From Acidobacteriaceae bacterium (GTDB taxonomy: Bacteria > Acidobacteriota > Terriglobia > Terriglobales > Acidobacteriaceae): a stretch of DNA of 5,854 nucleotides. The DNA lies in NCBI GenBank assembly GCA_003133425.1, contig PKXI01000010.1:1-5854 (forward strand). The letters are read 5' to 3'. Position 1 is the stretch's first letter; each line of letters opens with the position of its first letter. The notes under the pieces are model-generated. The model was not told the DNA's origin and searched no databases. It saw nothing but the letters and a program-made list of their open reading frames with translations. This document shows positions 1 to 5,854 of the stretch, piece by piece. Made by a program: the position numbers and the translations under genes.

Positions 1-65
1 CCTCCTAAAACAGCACGGTCAATGCTGGCGTGGGCTGCTGCCCTTGTTGTCGTCCACGCAGCGCA

Positions 66-419
66 TCAAGCGATGTTCCGGGCAACGCTCTTTAACGCCT
101 CGAAGTCAGTGAGTTCTTGCTCGGTAATGTCGCTATCCATACTGCCGGGGCGAACGCAAGCGTGATAGGCGTCCCAAAGTTCGATACGATTGGCCTTCAG
201 TAACTCAAGCTTGTCCTTATACGACAGCCCATCAGCGGTCAGATTCAACACCGCTCCTATGAGCCTCCAAAAGTCGTTGCCGGGGTTCGCGTGGTACTGC
301 TCGGCAGCAGCCACGGGCGTGGTCAGCCCTTGAATCGGAGATGCAAGAAACTCCAGTAGCTTGTCCGTAATCACGCGCCTAACTCCCCGGAGCTTTGGTT
401 GACTTGTGATAAACGTCAC
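66..419 (-). CDS. Truncated DNA-glycosylase-like protein (uracil/hypoxanthine-DNA glycosylase superfamily), probable remnant
   Basis: This 117-residue reading frame starts at a GTG and has no visible ribosome binding site. The middle resembles the Mug/deoxyinosine-type DNA glycosylases: HANPGNDFW near residues 43-51 matches the family block NPxNxFW, and ELWDAYHACVRPGSMDSDI near residues 80-98 matches the LWDVxxSCxRxGSLDSxI block that follows it. Such enzymes remove deaminated bases from DNA and are usually about 160-190 residues long. Two things look wrong. The N-terminal glycine/proline motif that carries the catalytic loop is not recognisable, and the frame stops just after TDFEAL, where the family goes on into the FNGK-type strand and the DNA-intercalating loop. 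The C-terminal half is therefore missing, and no clear continuation appears in the other frames up to the left edge. I infer a decayed gene. The family assignment rests on remembered motifs. Confidence 0.5.
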   Translation of the reverse strand: MTFITSQPKLRGVRRVITDKLLEFLASPIQGLTTPVAAAEQYHANPGNDFWRLIGAVLNLTADGLSYKDKLELLKANRIELWDAYHACVRPGSMDSDITEQELTDFEALKSVARNIA

Positions 420-698
420 TTTTGACGTGTCGTTCTGCGAATGACTACTGGTGGGTTATTGACGCCGCGAGAATGCGGGGATACATTGAACTCGTAGAGG
501 GAAGGAGGACGACCCAAAAGATGCGGAGAAACTCTTCCATCATTACATTTCGTGAGGTGACTGTGGCCTAGGGCATCGCGCCCCAGACCCCAAGGTAGCC
601 CCTGTGTAGAGAATTCAACCGCATGGGACGCTATCGCATCCTTTCACGTTGCAATGCATCCTTCGACCCGTTGTGCAGGATGGCATTTTTCCGATGGA

Positions 699-871
699 GC
701 GACGACTCTGTCGCCCAAGGGAGCCGGTCTAACCGGTGACGCTATCGAGCAATCGCGGCTTGGGAGCATGAGTGAAAATGCTCGGGCACTCGCAGCAGCG
801 CGATGGCCTTCGTCCAATATTCACAGTTCACCGCGACGGCCTAGGCAATGCGCCTAGGCCGTCGTTTCTTT
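699..871 (+). ncRNA. Candidate structured small RNA ending in an intrinsic terminator
   Basis: Several short perfect stems lie in a row: 699-703 with 710-714 (GCGAC/GTCGC), 724-728 with 732-736 (CCGGT/ACCGG, 3-base loop), and 764-769 with 778-783 (GAGCAT/ATGCTC). The last is enclosed by 752-757 with 799-804 (ATCGCG/CGCGAT). A strong terminator follows 30 bases later. No credible reading frame ends at that terminator, so a noncoding transcript is a reasonable inference. I do not recognise an RNA family: I looked for signatures of tmRNA, RNase P, SRP, 6S RNA and common riboswitches and saw none. No promoter was identified, and the true 5' end could lie well upstream. Confidence 0.3.
834..871 (+). 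terminator. Intrinsic (rho-independent) terminator
   Basis: A perfect 13-base-pair GC-rich stem pairs 834-846 with 852-864, with a 5-base loop (AATGC), followed directly by TTTCTTT on the plus strand. The minus strand has no T-tract after the stem, so it terminates plus-strand transcription. The stem contains CCTAGG. No clear gene stands just upstream, which makes it an orphan terminator. Confidence 0.85.
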
Positions 872-1074
872 GGGGGAACGATGACGCCGGGAGTCCTTGA
901 TTTCAACGATTGTTTCCGGGTACACAAGGCGTCTCCAAAACCACGGTACCAAGTGTTGTTGGGTTGCGATAGTTCACGGGGTAATACCTCAAATTGCGTT
1001 ACATCTGCGCCTTCGACTTGCTTTACGAAGAGGACAAGCAGAATCTTAAAGGCATGAGTTCCATGAAGGGACAG
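841..1074 (-). pseudogene. Open frame without a start codon, possible gene remnant
   Basis: Reading leftwards from a TGA at 1077-1075, the frame stays open for 77 codons and ends with TAG at 843-841, inside the terminator stem. It has no ATG, GTG or TTG near its beginning. The translation looks protein-like (a hydrophobic stretch KILLVLFVKQ early on, then NTWYRGFGD in the middle) and ends in a basic tail PPKKRRPRRIA. I recognise no family. It may be the 3' part of a decayed gene, or chance: an opposing plus-strand frame covers the same DNA. Low confidence. Confidence 0.2.
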
Positions 1075-1078
1075 TCAC

Positions 1079-1222
1079 ATGGGCACTATTCAAGGGGGAG
1101 GCCATAAAGACTTTGTCATTGCAAAAGATTGCTCGAAACCTGATGAAGTTCACGCCGCCTATCATTTTGGAGGAAACGCACACTACAAGGCGTTGCTTTT
1201 AAGGCGAACTTGCAAGCGATAA
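1079..1222 (+). CDS. Possible 47-residue small protein, unknown
   Basis: The ATG is preceded by AAGGGA at 1066-1071 with 7 bases of spacing, a reasonable ribosome binding site. The frame gives 47 residues beginning MGTIQGGGHKDFVIAKDC, with a glycine/histidine/tyrosine-rich middle (HAAYHFGGNAHYK) and a basic end (LLLRRTCKR). I recognise no family, and the ending does not look like a designed C-terminus, so this could be the front of a broken gene. It lies 58 bases upstream of the nitroreductase start on the same strand and could share its transcript. The support is the ribosome binding site and the protein-like composition only. Confidence 0.3.
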   Translation: MGTIQGGGHKDFVIAKDCSKPDEVHAAYHFGGNAHYKALLLRRTCKR

Positions 1223-1280
1223 CGATGGGAATTGCCGCCGGTGCCCGCCAAGGTCTACGATGATTCAGGGACAAGCAATC

Positions 1281-1772
1281 ATGGACGCAATCGAAGCAAT
1301 CAAGACCCGCCGATGCATTCGTGCATACACGGAACAAAGCGTTGCGCGAGAGATTATCGAGGACGTAATCGACTGCGGTCGTCTTGCCGCGACCGCACGA
1401 AATGAACAGCCGTGGGAATTCGTGGTTCTGACCGACCCCAACCAACTACGGAGTATCGCCAAGAAAGCCGAGTACGGGCGCTTTATCGCTAAAGCCCCGG
1501 TATGCATTCTCGTTCTGTGCAAGGATACGAAGTATTACCTTGAAGACGGCTCTGCTGCCACTCAGAACATCTTGGTAGCCGCCAAAGCGCATGGGCTGGG
1601 CGCGTGCTGGGTCGCTGGCGACAAGAAGGAATACGCCGGCGAAGTCTGTCGTGAATTTGGCGCTCCGAAAGGATACAAGCTGGTCAGCATGATTCCTATC
1701 GGTCACCCGGCAGAGCAGCCGCGTAAGATGAAGCGGCCTCTTCACGAGCTTGTTCACTGGGGCAAGTTCTAG
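1281..1772 (+). CDS. Small nitroreductase family protein (FMN-dependent oxidoreductase)
   Basis: The 163-residue product belongs to the compact nitroreductase family, cytoplasmic flavoproteins that use NAD(P)H to reduce nitro compounds, quinones or similar acceptors; the natural substrate cannot be told from sequence. Visible blocks are MDAIEAIKTRRCIRAYTEQ at residues 1-19, with the paired arginines (10-11) typical of FMN phosphate binding; AATARNEQPWEFVVLTD at 36-52, the family's SPSxxNxQPWxFVV block; the helix EDGSAATQNILVAAKAHGLG at 88-107, followed by ACWVA; and the strand LVSMIPIGHPAE at 134-145 that closes the fold. The end, HELVHWGKF, matches the usual C-terminus. The length is at the short end of the family, but the protein appears complete. 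I chose the ATG at 1281 because the conserved N-terminus begins there; an in-frame ATG at 1260 would add seven residues. AGGGA at 1266-1270 is a weak binding site for the chosen start. It is the only clearly intact gene in the left half. Confidence 0.9.
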   Translation: MDAIEAIKTRRCIRAYTEQSVAREIIEDVIDCGRLAATARNEQPWEFVVLTDPNQLRSIAKKAEYGRFIAKAPVCILVLCKDTKYYLEDGSAATQNILVAAKAHGLGACWVAGDKKEYAGEVCREFGAPKGYKLVSMIPIGHPAEQPRKMKRPLHELVHWGKF

Positions 1773-2181
1773 CTGAACTCGTATCGCGGGTGCTGCGGAC
1801 TCTGGCAGTCTGCTCTGCCTTCATTGCCGACTCGATAGACCTTGCGATAGCAGACAAGCATGCGTCAGGCGGCAGGTCGAGCCTCGTGAGCCGGTCGCTC
1901 TCCTGAAAACCGGCGAGATTCGAGTTGCGCGGAGGAGCATCGGTGAGCATGGGTTCGGAAACTTCCTTTTTGACGGCACAATTGTACGCTCATCCCGTTA
2001 GTTGGCGGCACCGAGAAGCCTTCCTGCCCGTATGGCTCTGGCCGGGCAGTGGAGCTACCGGCTAGTGCAAATGCCACGTGTAGCGCCCAAATGCGTTTTC
2101 GAAGGTCAATTTGAACCCAATGGTTTAGAATCTGATTCCTCTAACAGAACAGCTTGCCGGTTTTAATAGAGCGTAAGCCCG
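1773..2181. other. Intergenic stretch without a convincing gene
   Basis: About 410 bases follow the nitroreductase. Frames on the two strands compete, and none has a recognisable product. The best-supported is a 40-codon plus-strand frame at 1943-2065. A minus-strand frame at 1696-1950 overlaps the 3' end of the nitroreductase by 77 bases. A 7-base-pair hairpin (2024-2030 with 2043-2049, CTGCCCG/CGGGCAG, 12-base loop) has no T-tract and is not a terminator. I see no clear promoter and no terminator for the nitroreductase. Confidence 0.5.
1943..2065 (+). CDS. Possible 40-residue small protein, unknown
   Basis: A GTG at 1943 lies five bases after a strong GGAGGAG (1931-1937), and the frame runs 40 codons to TAG at 2063-2065. 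An ATG two codons further (1949) is the alternative start. The product is rich in tryptophan and proline towards its end (VWLWPGSGATG) and matches no family I know. A competing minus-strand frame covers the same bases. The binding site is the only positive evidence and may be accidental. Confidence 0.2.
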   Translation: MSMGSETSFLTAQLYAHPVSWRHREAFLPVWLWPGSGATG

Positions 2182-2411
2182 ATGAAGTCCCATACAGTTC
2201 CTCGGAAGCTTCTTGAGCAATTCGCCTACGTCGATCACCACACCAAATCACTCCGGCTGTGGCGATATGAGAAAGATCGCCAACCATACCCGAACGCATC
2301 TCCACGGACATCCGGCCCCGCAATAAGACGAAAGAGATAGTCCATGCAATCCTCGGAGCATTGGGAATCGTAGCGTTCGTCGCAGTGATGATTTATTTCG
2401 CAACCTTGTAA
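2182..2411 (+). pseudogene. Small single-pass membrane protein gene split by a -1 frameshift
   Basis: From the ATG at 2182 one frame reads MKSHTVPRKLLEQFAYVD and onwards through SLRLWRYEKDRQPYPNASP, then loses sense and stops at 2338-2340. A second frame, one base back, is open to TAA at 2409-2411 and reads RPRNKTKEIVHAILGALG, then a clear transmembrane segment IVAFVAVMIYFATL that ends the protein. Joining the frames near 2311-2315 (TCCGG) gives a sensible 76-residue protein: a charged, aromatic N-terminal cytoplasmic part, a basic stretch RPRNKTK obeying the positive-inside rule, and a C-terminal membrane anchor. I do not know a named family. No good ribosome binding site precedes the ATG. 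The break could be a real inactivating deletion of one base, a sequencing error, or, less likely, programmed frameshifting, since I see no slippery heptamer. Confidence 0.5.
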
Positions 2412-2419
2412 ACGTGTTC

Positions 2420-2487
2420 ATTCTTCCCCGCGCCGCAGGAACAGCGCATTCTGACTTTCTGAACAGGTTTGTCAGCCGGGGAAGAAT
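2420..2487. repeat. Inverted repeat, structured leader before the phage operon
   Basis: An 11-base perfect inverted repeat (ATTCTTCCCCG at 2420-2430 with CGGGGAAGAAT at 2477-2487) encloses a nested 5-base-pair stem (CTGAC 2451-2455 with GTCAG 2471-2475). The right arm ends 17 bases before the first operon start codon. There is no T-tract on either side, so it is not an intrinsic terminator. It may be a regulatory leader structure, a protein-binding site, or a recombination or junction site at the boundary of the phage-like segment. Confidence 0.6.
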
Positions 2488-2504
2488 CCTAAATTAACAA
2501 AACC

Positions 2505-2711
2505 ATGAACAACATAATCAACTTTATATTGAGTGGACAGGATGACTTCGTGTGGTGCCCGCAAGGAGCGCACGTCGTTATGAAGGACGACTTCGACCCC
2601 CGCGCCGGCATGTGCGGAGTGTGCATCAGCGAAGCGATGGCAGACGCAGGAGATTACTTTTCACGCAGAGGGTTGGTCGCATCCGCCGAAGAACAACCAT
2701 TCAACGATTAA
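2505..2711 (+). CDS. Small phage-type protein of unknown function with possible zinc-binding cysteines
   Basis: First gene of the tight plus-strand operon, 68 residues. I do not recognise the family. Cys18, His23, Cys37 and Cys40 could form one metal site (C-x4-H-x13-C-x2-C); the second half of that pattern, CGVC, is a typical zinc knuckle. The N-terminus is hydrophobic (NNIINFILS) but too short for a membrane segment, and the C-terminus is acidic. The start follows a G-poor stretch (AAATTAACAAAACC) with no Shine-Dalgarno sequence, the same style as the genes after it. The next gene begins four bases after the stop. A role in early phage development is inferred from the neighbourhood only. 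Confidence 0.6.
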   Translation: MNNIINFILSGQDDFVWCPQGAHVVMKDDFDPRAGMCGVCISEAMADAGDYFSRRGLVASAEEQPFND

Positions 2712-2715
2712 ATCC

Positions 2716-2964
2716 ATGAGCAGTAAATATCCAAGCATCATGAGGAATTGGCAAGAGGATAACAATCCTCACAACTGGCAACACGGATGCTGTGAATGTG
2801 CAAAGCCATTTGAGAAGGGAGAATCATTTGTCCGCGCCGATGTTCCAAATGGTTGGTTTCGCGGCGACGACGATGTGTATACCTTTCACAAGACGTGCTT
2901 CACGAAAGAGGTCGAGCGCAATTTAATGGACTACGCCCCAAAATGTGGGAAGTCTCACGACTAG
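2716..2964 (+). CDS. Small putative zinc-finger phage protein, unknown function
   Basis: The 82-residue product has a clear metal-binding arrangement: Cys25-x2-Cys28 in HGCCECAKPFEKGE and His58-x2-Cys61 in FHKTCF, about 30 residues apart. This C2HC layout, with a KGE turn after the first pair, is like small treble-clef or LIM-like fingers, which bind nucleic acid or protein. I infer zinc binding; the partner is unknown. The N-terminus is rich in tryptophan and asparagine, and the region between the pairs is acidic (RGDDDVYTF). It starts four bases after the previous stop, with no Shine-Dalgarno sequence in the spacer, and is followed after one base by the next gene, so translation is probably coupled. 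The composition agrees with its operon neighbours. Confidence 0.65.
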   Translation: MSSKYPSIMRNWQEDNNPHNWQHGCCECAKPFEKGESFVRADVPNGWFRGDDDVYTFHKTCFTKEVERNLMDYAPKCGKSHD

Positions 2965-2965
2965 C

Positions 2966-3157
2966 ATGAAACCCTACACATCAGCAGACTTCGATAACGA
3001 CTGGGCGAAGGAGCGCCAGTTCATCGAACTCGGCGCAGAACAGAAGCTCCGCCCCGCGCCCAAAAGACCTCTTTACTTCCCTAAAGAATCCCCCCGTGAA
3101 ACAAGAGATAAGGAACTCCAGTCGATCATTAAAGAAAATATCACCGCATCACAATGA
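2966..3157 (+). CDS. Small hypothetical phage protein
   Basis: This 63-residue hydrophilic protein begins MKPYTSADFDNDWAKERQF. I chose the ATG at 2966 over the in-frame ATG at 2945 because it lies one base after the previous stop, matching the spacing used throughout this operon; the longer form would overlap the previous gene by 20 bases. A proline- and basic-rich middle (KLRPAPKRPLYFPKESP) suggests an extended segment, and the end is a charged helix-like stretch. I see no family signature, signal peptide or membrane segment. Its stop overlaps the next start in an ATGA arrangement, so the two are probably co-translated. Function unknown. Confidence 0.6.
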   Translation: MKPYTSADFDNDWAKERQFIELGAEQKLRPAPKRPLYFPKESPRETRDKELQSIIKENITASQ

Positions 3158-3678
3158 ACCTCTTAAAGAAAAAGCCAGTGTACCTATGGAAGTCCATGAA
3201 AGCTGGTATGAAATCAGCTAACGGCAATGTAGATTGGAAACTTGGCGAGTGGCAGAAACTCGAAGGAACTTTGGACATCTGCAATAACGGTTTCCACGCA
3301 TCAGAGAAACCTCTTGACGCAATGGGATATGTGAACTGCGAGATCATGGCGAAGGTTGAGGTGCGCGGGAAATCAATTAAGCAGGAAGACAAGCAAGCCT
3401 GGACAGAGATGCGGATAGTCAAAGCCTATGAGTGGAAGAAAGAGGACTCTGTAGCACTTTCTATTTTCGCGGCTGAACTCTGCATCAAGAACTTTGAGAA
3501 GGTCTATCCTGATGATAAGCGTCCTCGTGAAGCAATTGAAGCCGCAAAAGAATGGTTAAAGAATCCATCGGCGACGTCGGAGAGTGCGGCGAGGAGTGCG
3601 GCGAGGAGTGCGGAGAGTGCGGAGAACAGGACAAAATGCAACGACTTTGTTCTTAAAAGAATTAAAGTAAAAGAATGA
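3154..3678 (+). CDS. Phage protein with a GFHA-type N-terminal domain and alanine/serine repeat tail
   Basis: The 174-residue product resembles a widespread phage/prophage family of unknown function (DUF7666-like, by memory). The first half carries the family's hallmark ICNNGFHASEKPLDAM (residues 42-57), flanked by KLGEWQKLEG and by KVEVRGKSIKQEDKQAW. The second half, ELCIKNFEKVYPDDKRPREAIEAAKEWLKNP (108-138, cited here as a region), corresponds to the segment that in relatives leads into long alanine-rich repeats. Here that tail is short, residues 142-159, built from SAAR/SAES units encoded by a DNA microrepeat, and ends in a basic KRIKVKE. Start and stop overlap the neighbours by ATGA on both sides. 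The preceding AAAGAA-type bases are not a convincing Shine-Dalgarno. Biochemical role unknown; relatives are sometimes labelled immunity-like, which I cannot confirm. Confidence 0.7.
   Translation: MNLLKKKPVYLWKSMKAGMKSANGNVDWKLGEWQKLEGTLDICNNGFHASEKPLDAMGYVNCEIMAKVEVRGKSIKQEDKQAWTEMRIVKAYEWKKEDSVALSIFAAELCIKNFEKVYPDDKRPREAIEAAKEWLKNPSATSESAARSAARSAESAENRTKCNDFVLKRIKVKE
3580..3623 (+). repeat. Coding tandem microrepeat (GAGAGTGCGG / GAGGAGTGCGGC units)
   Basis: Two 12-base GAGGAGTGCGGM units (3591-3602 and 3603-3614) are flanked by shorter GAGAGTGCGG copies at 3580-3589 and 3613-3622. All lie in frame with the host gene and encode SESAARSAARSAES. The near-identical codons point to recent slippage or unequal copying and not to selection on the protein alone. 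Units of 9 and 12 bases keep the frame when copy number changes. Confidence 0.8.
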
Positions 3679-4046
3679 TTACATCACTCAAGGACAATCA
3701 GTTCTTCGTATTCGGATCTAACGTTGCTGGCCGACATATGGGCGGGGCCGCTCTCCAGGCCAAAGAACAGTTCGGTGCCGAGGAGGGAATAGGCGAAGGT
3801 TTGACGGGACAGTGCTATGCGTTCCCGACACTTTACGAATCCTTCAATTACGGCGGATTACAACAGCGCATGAAGCAAGAACTTGAACAGTCAGTCAAGA
3901 AGTTCTACGCAACCGCCCGCGCCCTTCCTGAAAAGGAGTTCCTAATGACTCCCGTAGGAATAGGCATCGCGGGCTATGAACCCGAATACATGAAGCAACT
4001 ATTTACTAATCCTCCGGCGAATGTCGTCCTGCCGGAGTGGAAATAA
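3675..4046 (+). CDS. A1S_2505-like phage non-structural protein (macro-domain-like fold)
   Basis: The 123-residue product matches a family of phage proteins known by memory as the A1S_2505 type. The signature FFVFGSNVAGRHMGGAA (residues 10-26) resembles the nucleotide-binding start of macro domains; GIGEGLTGQCYAFPTL (38-53) and FLMTPVGIGIAGYEPEYM (89-106) are the other conserved blocks, the last containing the glycine-rich loop. Macro-like folds bind ADP-ribose or related nucleotides, so a role in nucleotide or ADP-ribose handling during infection is a plausible inference, not shown. The length is normal for the family and the protein looks complete. It is coupled to the upstream gene by an ATGA overlap, and the next gene starts 13 bases after its stop. 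Confidence 0.75.
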   Translation: MITSLKDNQFFVFGSNVAGRHMGGAALQAKEQFGAEEGIGEGLTGQCYAFPTLYESFNYGGLQQRMKQELEQSVKKFYATARALPEKEFLMTPVGIGIAGYEPEYMKQLFTNPPANVVLPEWK

Positions 4047-4059
4047 ACTAATCACACAA

Positions 4060-4287
4060 ATGAAGCTCATCATCACCCGTTCATTTAGTAAGACAAAGCA
4101 AGTTGCATCGTTCGAGCCGATCAATTCGTTCTGCTCCGTCCAGGCGGAGTATGACGACCCGCTCGACGATCAGTTCGTGAAATCAATTTCGGAACATCTC
4201 GACAAACTTGTCCGGCAGGAGGTCGAACGGACCATAGAGAACGAGATGAAGAAGGTTGAAGTAATTAAAAAACAAAACACATTCTAA
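4060..4287 (+). CDS. Small hypothetical phage protein with charged C-terminal helix
   Basis: I chose the ATG at 4060 (75 residues, MKLIITRSFSKTKQVASF) over the in-frame ATG at 4021, which would overlap the previous gene by 26 bases and add an unlikely leader. The N-terminal half looks like short strands. Residues from about 38 onwards (SISEHLDKLVRQEVERTIE and the lysine-rich end) form a strongly charged probable amphipathic helix or coiled coil, suggesting oligomerisation or binding to another protein or nucleic acid. I recognise no family. The leader CTAATCACACAA has no Shine-Dalgarno, and the next gene follows after only two bases. Confidence 0.6.
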   Translation: MKLIITRSFSKTKQVASFEPINSFCSVQAEYDDPLDDQFVKSISEHLDKLVRQEVERTIENEMKKVEVIKKQNTF

Positions 4288-4289
4288 CC

Positions 4290-4727
4290 ATGAAATATCA
4301 AAAGCAAGTATCGGTAGGCGGGACTTGGGTGAAAGGTGCGGAGGTAGTGTCAGGGACGCATTGTAAGCTGATGAGCGCCACCGAACGAATGCCCTCGCAG
4401 TTCAAGGATGAGAAGACGGGCGAAACAAAGTTCCAAGATGTCGCAAAAGTGTTGTTCAGCGGCGATACGGAAACGAAGAACATCAGCTTGAACCGCGCGA
4501 CAATAAACGGACTTGTAGATGCGTTTGGGGAGGATTCAGTCCTTTGGCAGGATCAGGTGTTGACCGCCGAAACGGAGAAGGTGCGCGTTGCGGGCAGGGC
4601 AGTAACCGCAGTTTACCTCTTGCCGGAGGGATACGAGCGCGTGGACGACGAGAACGGCTATACCGTCATCGTGAAGAAGGGTACGCAGGTCGGCGCGCCC
4701 GAAGAGATACCGAGCATAGACTTCTAA
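4290..4727 (+). CDS. Phage protein, possible single-stranded-DNA-binding or recombination-associated protein
   Basis: Last gene of the operon, 145 residues. The core KFQDVAKVLFSGDTETKNIS followed by LNRATINGLVDAFGEDS (residues 47-83) resembles a common phage family whose members contain LNKTNxxxLxxxYGxD and often sit beside replication or recombination genes. The first 60 residues and the segment AGRAVTAVYLLPEGY (101-115) look like beta strands. The C-terminus EEIPSIDF resembles the acidic, phenylalanine-ended tip of single-stranded-DNA-binding proteins, which recruits partner enzymes. This points to an OB-fold or DNA-binding role, but it is inference: I cannot confirm the fold. The start lies two bases after the previous stop with no Shine-Dalgarno. 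Next come 89 bases without a gene, with only an imperfect 8-base hairpin (4741-4748 with 4767-4774) and no clear terminator. Confidence 0.65.
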   Translation: MKYQKQVSVGGTWVKGAEVVSGTHCKLMSATERMPSQFKDEKTGETKFQDVAKVLFSGDTETKNISLNRATINGLVDAFGEDSVLWQDQVLTAETEKVRVAGRAVTAVYLLPEGYERVDDENGYTVIVKKGTQVGAPEEIPSIDF

Positions 4728-4816
4728 CCAATCGGGGGTCGCCTACTGAATAAGCGAAACACGGGACAATAGGCTAGGTTGGCGCAGGCCACATGAACGC
4801 ACCCTTCCCGGAAGCC

Positions 4817-4990
4817 TTAATCCTCTGTTCTTTTCTTTGTCCCCTCGACTCCTTTGTCCCTAGTTTCCGGATCGTCTTTAGGGTCAGTGTCAGTAGTATC
4901 AGCGGTATCGATCGTCCCCAGGGAATCGTTCGTAAGCTCTCTCTTCACTTCAGCGTCGGTAAGCGTGGGCCGCTTCATGTGTGCAGTCAT
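4817..4990 (-). CDS. Tiny acidic Asp/Thr-rich protein, unknown (second gene of antisense pair)
   Basis: A 57-residue frame starts at 4990 with MTAHMKRPTLTDAEVKREL and ends with TAA at 4819-4817. Its ATG overlaps the TGA of the upstream minus-strand gene (ATGA), so translation is probably coupled; an alternative in-frame ATG lies four codons later. The middle is a low-complexity acidic run of aspartate and threonine (DTADTTDTDPKDDPETRD), and the end is lysine-rich. It is probably disordered. I recognise no family. The gene points against the phage operon and ends 89 bases from its last stop, so the two units converge. The shared overlap and the strong ribosome site of its partner are the evidence that it is real. 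Confidence 0.55.
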   Translation of the reverse strand: MTAHMKRPTLTDAEVKRELTNDSLGTIDTADTTDTDPKDDPETRDKGVEGTKKRTED

Positions 4991-5139
4991 TCTTTGCCCT
5001 TTTCTTCCTTCTCCTCATCCTCAGGCGGTTCAGGGAGAGTGGACACGGGAACGTGTGTCCCTATGGTATCCAGGAAAGCATCCACGGGAACGTCATCATC
5101 AACAATTTCTTTGGGTTCAGTGTGGGTTTCGGCGCTCAT
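4987..5139 (-). CDS. Tiny acidic protein, unknown (first gene of antisense pair)
   Basis: A 50-residue frame begins MSAETHTEPKEIVDDDVPVD and ends in a highly charged tail, PPEDEEKEEKGKE. It is preceded by an ideal ribosome binding site, AAGGAGG, five bases before the ATG. The net charge is strongly negative, and the protein is likely disordered apart from a short hydrophobic middle (AFLDTIGTHVPVSTL). The dipeptide-repeat-like VPV occurs twice and is encoded by an 11-base direct repeat (CACGGGAACGT on the plus strand at 5044-5054 and 5083-5093). It matches no family I know. Small acidic phage proteins sometimes mimic DNA or inhibit host enzymes; that is speculation here. It is divergent from the truncated phage gene at 5219, leaving a 79-base gap for control signals. 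Confidence 0.65.
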   Translation of the reverse strand: MSAETHTEPKEIVDDDVPVDAFLDTIGTHVPVSTLPEPPEDEEKEEKGKE

Positions 5140-5144
5140 AGACT

Positions 5145-5151
5145 CCTCCTT
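5145..5151 (-). promoter_or_regulatory. Strong Shine-Dalgarno site of the antisense pair
   Basis: On the minus strand the bases read AAGGAGG, a full match to the anti-16S tail, five bases before the ATG at 5139-5137. It decides the start of the 50-residue gene. It contrasts with the plus-strand phage genes, none of which has such a site. Confidence 0.85.
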
Positions 5152-5218
5152 GGACGTATTAGACGCCGAAAAGCAATTCTCACACTGATCAAAACAGACC
5201 TCTAATTAAATCTATTCC

Positions 5219-5332
5219 ATGGCACTTAAAAATTACACCTCCAAAAGTAAAAACACCTTCGATGTTATTCAGAAGTGCCTCGCGTCTCATGGCGCACAGA
5301 AGCTGATGTTCGGAGCGTGTCAACGAGTTTGA
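5219..5332 (+). pseudogene. 5' end of a phage gene truncated by an insertion sequence
   Basis: The ATG at 5219 opens a frame MALKNYTSKSKNTFDVIQ that reads well as a phage-type protein for about 31 residues (to KLMF, base 5311). It then runs into the insertion-sequence end and stops after six more codons (GACQRV) at 5330-5332. The beginning MALKNYTS...F.VIQKCLASHGAQKLM resembles the start of small phage proteins of unknown function (a memory-based likeness). Its G-poor leader CTAATTAAATCTATTCC lacks a Shine-Dalgarno and matches the style of the seven operon genes, so it belongs to the same phage module. The bulk of the gene should lie beyond the IS element, outside this window. Confidence 0.6.
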
Positions 5333-5336
5333 GACA
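5318..5336. repeat. Probable terminal inverted repeat of the IS element
   Basis: TGTCAACGAGTTTGAGACA begins with TG, lies 14 bases beyond the transposase stop codon, and marks the point where the phage frame degenerates. Its outer bases, TGTC and GACA, are themselves inverted. The matching copy at the far end is not in the window. Confidence 0.45.
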
Positions 5337-5350
5337 TGTGGCGTGAGAGT

Positions 5351-5854
5351 TTAGTGTCGAGTTTCCTCTGTCGCCGGTGTCGGGATAGGCGGGTTGATCC
5401 AGACCGCAGTGGGCTGGGGCGGGTGCTTTGGGCGGATGCGGACGAAGCGTTCCGGGTTACGAGCATAGGCCAGGTCGAGCACGTTTTGTCGCTGCTCGAT
5501 GACCTGTGATGCCATGCCGTAATGCAGCATATCCGGCGTCAGCAGCGCGATTCCGCTGTGATGGTGGTCGTGGTTGTACCAGGGGAAGAAGCGCTGACAA
5601 AAGGCACGTGCATCCTCGATGGAGCCGAATCGGTCGGGGAACTTGGGCCGATATTTGAGGGTCTTGAACTGGCTCTCCGAGTACGGGTTGTCGTCTGAGA
5701 CGTGTGGTCGACTGTGGGTTTTGGTTACGCCCAGATCGGCCAGCATCAGCGCCACTGGCTTTGAGGTCATCGAGGTTCCGCGATCGGCGTGGATGGTCAG
5801 AGTGCCTGCCGCGATGCCTTGCTTCTGGCAACTTGCCGCGATCAGCCGTTTGGC
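5351..5854 (-). CDS. IS3-type transposase (integrase core, DD(35)E), N-terminally cut by window edge
   Basis: The visible 167 residues are the C-terminal part of a DDE transposase that cuts and joins the ends of the insertion sequence. The second catalytic aspartate is in HADRGTSM and the glutamate in DDNPYSESQFKTLK, with exactly 35 residues between them, the DD(35)E spacing of the integrase-core (rve) family. After it come RAFCQRFFPWYNHDHHHSG, the tryptophan-containing YN..HHSG block of IS3-like enzymes, and a C-terminus rich in proline with AVWINPP. The first aspartate and the DNA-binding domain lie beyond the right edge, so the gene is partial. It is read towards the truncated phage gene. 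No inactivating change is seen in the visible part. Confidence 0.9.
   Translation of the reverse strand, partial: AKRLIAASCQKQGIAAGTLTIHADRGTSMTSKPVALMLADLGVTKTHSRPHVSDDNPYSESQFKTLKYRPKFPDRFGSIEDARAFCQRFFPWYNHDHHHSGIALLTPDMLHYGMASQVIEQRQNVLDLAYARNPERFVRIRPKHPPQPTAVWINPPIPTPATEETRH

Follow-up and report, generated by a model that had tools for sequence, protein, structure and literature searches.

A 5,854-nucleotide stretch of an Acidobacteriaceae bacterium (GenBank assembly GCA_003133425.1, contig PKXI01000010.1, positions 1 to 5,854 of the forward strand; this whole stretch is referred to here as the window) contains two very short open reading frames (ORFs), A and B, on the minus strand, facing the end of a phage operon. 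The two frames overlap in an ATGA that holds both the start codon of B (ATG) and the stop codon of A (TGA), and a candidate structured RNA lies between B and g4290, the last operon gene. The 50- and 57-codon frames, their overlap and the spacing of the Shine-Dalgarno (SD) sequence are exactly as described in the original prediction, which was made from this DNA alone.

4987..5139 (-), read from 5139 to 4987: ORF A, 50 amino acids, acidic (isoelectric point (pI) 4.2), first gene of the antisense cassette
4817..4990 (-), read from 4990 to 4817: ORF B, 57 amino acids, second gene, with the core ELTNDSLGTIDTADTTDTD
5145..5151 (-): SD of A, AAGGAGG, five bases 5' of A's ATG
5140..5200 (-): leader of A, consisting of GGTCTGTTTTGATCAG, 19 nucleotides, CGTCTAA, 8 nucleotides, AAGGAGG, 5 nucleotides and ATG
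4736-4810 (+): RNA element with stems P1, P2 and P3 and a pseudoknot, its 3' end six bases from the stop codon of B

Sequence comparison indicates that A and B are real conserved protein genes. In a database of 5.8 billion clustered proteins, all 18 candidate homologs of A were confirmed (E-values 4.8e-20 to 9.5e-12), as were all 68 candidates for B, 66 of them non-identical and two (P0139 and P0140) identical to window B over their length, a conservation that the original prediction had left to protein searches. The consensus cores are EEIVDDDVPVDAFLDTIGTHVPV for A (alignment A2) and LTDAEVxxELVNDSLGTVDxADTTDTDPKDD for B, with residues N21 to G25 (NDSLG) invariant across 46 aligned B homologs. 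Differences between window B and the B gene of locus L053 (24 codons) fall 2, 2 and 9 times at codon positions 1, 2 and 3, and those between the B genes of L057 and L103 fall 2, 1 and 13 times, with 12 synonymous and two non-synonymous codon changes. Because of the homologs and this third-position bias, we take A and B to be translated rather than chance frames. A plus-strand gene over the same DNA was rejected as well. The antisense strand is stopped in all three frames in six of 18 compared B genes (L055, L057, L090, L093, L097 and L103) and retains at least one open frame in the other 12; this stop-codon test is weak alone, so that codon-position bias carries the case, and a synonymous-change pattern favoring the plus strand, named in the original prediction as contrary evidence, was not seen, change in B being biased to the third position of B's own frame. 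Three pairs of A- and B-relatives have longest contigs of equal size (P0131/P0143, 2113; P0137/P0152, 684; P0127/P0178, 1309 bases), which hints at shared contigs and is no proof of them.

As had been stated from the sequence alone, neither protein matches a known family: there were no matches in Pfam, PHROGs or PADLOC and no solved chain in PDB for either, none in NCBIfam for A, and for B a single NCBIfam match far below threshold (mutacin, 15 bits against a cut-off of 115). The description of the products as strongly charged and acidic suits A (net charge about -12 at pH 7; 16 acidic and four basic residues) and fits B less well (about -5, pI 4.7; 15 acidic and 10 basic). AlphaFold2 models are of low confidence for both, with one short helix in A (mean predicted local distance difference test (pLDDT) 61.6, predicted template modeling score (pTM) 0.16) and three in B (58.8 and 0.22); the underlying alignments are shallow and low pLDDT is therefore no proof of disorder, so the models fit mostly disordered products without establishing them. 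A paralogous origin of A and B was considered and is suggestive only (hhalign probability 30%; alignment score reached by two of 1,000 shuffles).

Homologs of B are not confined to this locus. The B profile (alignment A3, with window B as its first row) matched 1 of 396 genomes sampled phylum-wide, 9 of 250 in the family and 27 of 80 in the genus that includes G001 (L numbers denote the loci or contigs compared and G numbers genomes; G001, to which L037 and L053 belong, is an Acidobacteriaceae metagenome-assembled genome (MAG)), and window B alone reaches an E-value of 1e-11 in tblastn. By sequence, B belongs to a chromosomal small-protein family of Acidobacteriaceae that has no curated name. 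The chromosomal copies share with window B the VNDSLGTVDxAD core and an SD, and a CATCYAA-like box often lies upstream; most of those read end in a GDAKxxNTxTRED-like tail that window B lacks, and no A gene was recognized beside them, whereas window B is paired with A. Their neighbors vary and include a RarA-type ATPase gene in L054 and rplS in L057 and L060.

A is rarer. Its profile gave two weak matches among the 250 family genomes, one at a phage-like locus of G606 and the other (G475, E 0.006) within a 312-codon frame. A-like genes were found in L085 (G606) and L086 (G617), both phage-like loci, under the same leader as A, and the alignment scores of their products against A were reached by none of 1,000 shuffles each. 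In G606, a single-stranded-DNA-binding protein (SSB) gene precedes the RNA element; in G617, the context is a phage remnant.

The leader, in general form TTTTGMTCAG, 16-19 nucleotides, CRTYYAA, 8-11 nucleotides and SD, recurs in G001 ahead of the B gene (L053), at two places in G606 (L063/L085) and ahead of the A-like gene of G617 (L086); in L023, the first two boxes are present and the SD is not well placed. A relaxed pattern occurs at five places in four of 398 genomes, compared to none for a reversed-pattern control. At four of these places, the leader stands before a small gene of type A or B or before a small frame that is interrupted, and the fifth, in G585, precedes a long ORF, shows no cassette and is taken as unrelated. 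In a single scan of IMG/VR, only the contig of L023 matched. The leader starts 18, 16, 20 and 22 base pairs from the start codon of the divergent phage gene in the window, at the two places in G606 and in G617, respectively, the G617 neighbor being a remnant that by eye resembles the winged-helix gene of L019. The CATCYAA box with an SD also precedes ordinary-looking host genes (by eye), so that the start region of the cassette is taken as host-type. GCATCYAA plus SD was discarded as a cassette-only signal, with 40 occurrences versus 13 for the reversed control in eight genomes and no excess in G552 (5 versus 5).

The RNA element was drawn from hand alignments (A6 and A7), and a search model was built from the nine first members. 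Standard pairs make up 89.4% in these nine compared to 73.8% in shuffles, with two-sided changes at 12 of 21 pairs. Model searches added a tenth member, L008 (E 0.051, or 0.003 in a smaller search), and an eleventh, L143 of G587 (E 0.013), all these E-values being rough. With all eleven, the paired share is 90.5% and 14 of the 21 pairs show two-sided change; none of 500 shuffles was as good on four of five measures and nine were on the fifth, and six slid registers were far worse than the drawn one. Among the further copies are those at 2543-2611 of L008, whose P1 is closed by a sequence of its own (GGGATG paired with CATCCC), at 4408-4482 of L042 and at 1501-1568 (-) of L143. A swap test on the nine members gave strong support to P2 (1 of 20,000 permutations as good) and weak support to P1 (602 of 20,000). 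It gave no covariation signal for the pseudoknot (6,746 of 20,000), which can form in all nine and is near-invariant, so that covariation says little about it. RNAalifold applied to a MAFFT alignment recovered P1 only, and the full structure accordingly rests on the hand alignment; in L021, pairs are disrupted in all three stems, and L008 has no good P3. G-U pairs outnumber A-C mismatches by 10 to 3 in the nine members, which makes the plus strand the likelier RNA strand.

A g4290-type gene precedes the element in the window, L019-L022, L027 and L008; in L023, such a gene lies about 220 nucleotides ahead of it. In L042 (Pfam E 6.4e-37) and L085 (E 1.5e-32), the gene before the element is an SSB gene, and in L143 a SWIM-type ORF takes this position. 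Across 398 genomes, scanned with strict filters and 12 candidates scored per genome, the model matched only G587 and G606, and each of the 9 of 17 records or genomes with any match had a single one. Rfam gave no match up to E = 1 in the window, L001-L006, L008, L042, L085, L143 or L023. The element is more novel than the A/B cassette; neither it nor the pair is named in the titles and abstract openings found by the literature searches. The RNA element, the shared leader and the host B family did not figure in the original prediction.

The end of the RNA marks a boundary. DNA similarity to the closest contig, L019 (82% over 3656-4810), stops at 4810, the last base of the element. In L019, L042 and L008, the next plus-strand gene follows the RNA directly and there is no cassette; the genes beyond the cassette position differ (a stub at 5219 in the window, a winged-helix gene in L019), so that there is no clean empty site. 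In seven of the 11 loci with the RNA element, an antisense small frame occupies the slot before the next phage gene, in agreement with the suggestion that phages keep small variable cargo in such a place.

Window: A+B, antisense
L020: 49 amino acids, membrane-like, antisense
L022: 66 amino acids, acidic, antisense
L023: 62 amino acids, GTG start, antisense
L027: 57 amino acids, antisense, followed by a hairpin and T-run
L085: leader present, frame interrupted by unknown bases, antisense
L143: 50 amino acids, membrane-like, antisense

No antisense frame was accepted in the slots of L019, L021, L042 and L008. The antisense stop codon lies 6, 6, 6 and 7 nucleotides from the RNA end in the window, L022, L143 and L023, overlaps it by 18 nucleotides in L020 and is 61 nucleotides off in L027. 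An alignment score that one of 1,000 shuffles reached makes it probable that the two membrane-like proteins, those of L020 and L143, are related. G606 has a second, A-like cassette further on, beside a winged-helix gene. By eye, the hairpin and T-run of L027 (about 3923-3950 (-)), between the 57-residue ORF and the RNA element, are terminator-like. In L039, from a Terracidiphilus MAG, an SD-led, lipoprotein-like antisense ORF of 141 amino acids (3230-3655 (-)) with no Pfam match lies behind a g4290 fragment and is perhaps another antisense cargo gene.

The surroundings of the cassette in the window are as follows.

4290..4727 (+): g4290, convergent phage gene, 145 amino acids; an SSB gene holds this place in L042 and L085
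2505..4287 (+): rest of the phage operon, g2505, g2716, g2966, g3154, g3675 and g4060, with synteny in IMG/VR contigs
5219..5332 (+): divergent phage-like gene, truncated to its first 37 codons
5351..5854 (-): transposase with an integrase core (rve_3; Pfam PF13683, E 3.2e-14), insertion-sequence-like, running off the window

For g4290, 289 of 317 candidate homologs were confirmed, and it is 69-84% identical to relatives in six IMG/VR contigs; it has no Pfam family above cut-off and no relative among 50,697 phage records. g3675 has a PHROG match, and the order g2505, g2966, g4060, g4290 is kept in, for example, L019, L020, L022, L023 and L027. No SD was found at any of the eight listed plus-strand starts (start codons chosen by hand), whereas that of A is perfect. 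The pair had been placed antisense to the operon and beside a divergent phage gene. The opposite strand holds, but a gap rather than an overlap separates cassette and operon, and the divergent gene is a 37-codon stub with no homolog in Pfam, PHROGs or the loci searched. An insertion-sequence-like stretch (about 5317-5854) that carries the rve_3 transposase adjoins this stub. Within the operon, the gene at 3154-3678 matches DUF7666 (E 3e-14), has an Imm5-like match (E 5e-6), contains the short in-frame repeat SAARSAARSAESAE and is absent from the equivalent place in L019. Before g2505, at 2419-2490, ATTCTTCCCCG and CGGGGAAGAAT form an inverted repeat; other inverted repeats precede g2505-type genes in L019 and L021, and two seemingly interleaved ones do so in L037 (all by eye). 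Such repeats may represent a further structured element of this operon. Positions 1-2400 look bacterial, with a nitroreductase-family gene (1260-1772), and directly adjoin the phage operon.

We think it fairly probable that A and B form a moron-like cassette with host-style start signals, lying backwards between the RNA element and the next gene of an Acidobacteriaceae phage. The reading builds on the conservation of the two proteins, the recurrence of the leader, the slot with its changing contents and the B family in host genomes. Several results weigh against it. On the cassette strand, neither a sigma-70-like promoter nor a terminator was found, and the guanine-plus-cytosine (GC) content of the cassette (51.1%) is close to that of the phage genes (49.5%). 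A clear SD-led small gene was present in 6 of 10 and 13 of 16 B-match loci read, the rest lacking one by the same pattern, and the slot frame of L143 has no good SD. An automatic count in ten loci found six antisense SD-led ORFs in 7,000 base pairs versus 37 in 119,524 base pairs (Poisson P 0.023), a modest enrichment in which two of the six are probably chance and two slot ORFs were missed. Finally, none of 30, 24 and 30 candidate stretches in IMG/VR was confirmed as a relative of A or B (A queried as a single sequence only), nor was a relative present among the 50,697 phage records, so that the phage link rests on the window, G606 and G617.

Phage morons, in one account, are inserted between neighboring phage genes, absent in a relative and under their own transcription control (promoter, operator and/or terminator), with a GC content that usually differs from the rest of the phage (PMC2920897). 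The cassette shares the insertion between genes, the absence in relatives (L019, L042 and L008) and its own start signals, and, as in the slot here, one moron site can hold different cargo in different phages. It differs in its near-phage GC content, its opposite strand and the lack of a detected promoter or terminator, as well as in its cargo, two tiny genes with host-genome relatives, headed by a shared leader. The GC criterion is qualified by "usually" in the source and the cassette does not depart from phage GC, so we call it moron-like only. For the RNA element, the closest likeness is the STAXI motif, a pseudoknot structure near SSB genes (PMC2864571). STAXI, however, consists of tandem pseudoknot repeats, whereas the window element occurs as a single copy built of three stems and one pseudoknot and has no Rfam match in the range given above.

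If the moron-like reading is right, the cassette would be expressed independently of the convergent, SD-less phage operon, and should therefore be on when the operon is off, in lysogeny or early infection. Read-through from the operon would yield RNA antisense to A and B and should silence them. A would act as a companion of B, perhaps as its diverged paralog, and B, aided by A, would compete with the host's own B protein for its partner, altering host physiology to the benefit of the phage or lysogen. Such mimicry of a host small protein is the likeliest action, and is preferred because B has a family in host genomes; it is the weakest step of the scheme and is offered tentatively. A bolder extension strikes us as improbable: the RNA element may be a new class of regulatory RNA of acidobacterial phages, located where SSB-type genes end, and the slot an RNA-marked docking platform that swaps antisense host-mimic cassettes, with A/B cassettes as phage versions of the host small-protein family, switched off by convergent transcription and RNA folding once the replication operon is on.

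An equally improbable alternative is that A and B are two small host genes that a rearrangement brought into a decaying prophage and that have no phage role. B relatives are mostly on host contigs, nitroreductase, phage and transposase genes occur together in the window, an insertion-sequence-like stretch adjoins, and the divergent gene is a stub. Such a capture accounts poorly, however, for the recurrence in G606 and G617 of the leader and A-like genes, arranged in the same way next to phage genes, for a cassette boundary that coincides with the RNA end, and for other antisense mini-genes in the same slot of IMG/VR contigs.

The original prediction had also raised, from charge alone, a role as DNA mimics or as anti-restriction or anti-defense inhibitors, which we regard as quite unlikely. 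Phage inhibitors of the Ocr/ArdA kind are small acidic proteins that are folded DNA mimics, and DNA-mimic anti-restriction proteins have a folded body with ordered surface carboxylates. A and B are likewise small and acidic and sit in an accessory gene slot, but a folded body is missing from their AlphaFold2 models, searches of PADLOC, Pfam and PDB gave no match, B has 10 basic residues against its 15 acidic ones, and relatives of B reside on host contigs.

Slightly less credible still is a role of A and B as modified-peptide precursors. The proteins are short and encoded as a tandem pair, NDSLG is invariant in the aligned B homologs, B has a very weak lantibiotic-profile match (E 0.021), and an ORF with a SPASM domain (L088 2188-2541 (+), G635; Pfam E 9.8e-6), a type of domain that occurs in radical SAM enzymes that modify peptides, is located about 1 kb from the chromosomal B gene of that locus. 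The lantibiotic match, however, is far below cut-off, and a SPASM-like cysteine motif was present in one of 22 B-match loci, other kinds of maturation enzyme not having been searched for. That the frames are untranslated and the DNA is conserved for an antisense transcript or the leader hardly merits belief: a conserved leader and a neighboring RNA structure do exist, but third-position bias and amino-acid conservation speak for proteins.

Two protein families that lack a curated name can be linked here to one phage group, together with the leader that their cassettes share and a pseudoknotted RNA that shows covariation; B can be linked to host genomes as well. If mimicry is true, the host B protein would mark a control point exploited by phages; if the RNA is transcribed as drawn, phage operons of the SSB type would gain a new candidate control element.
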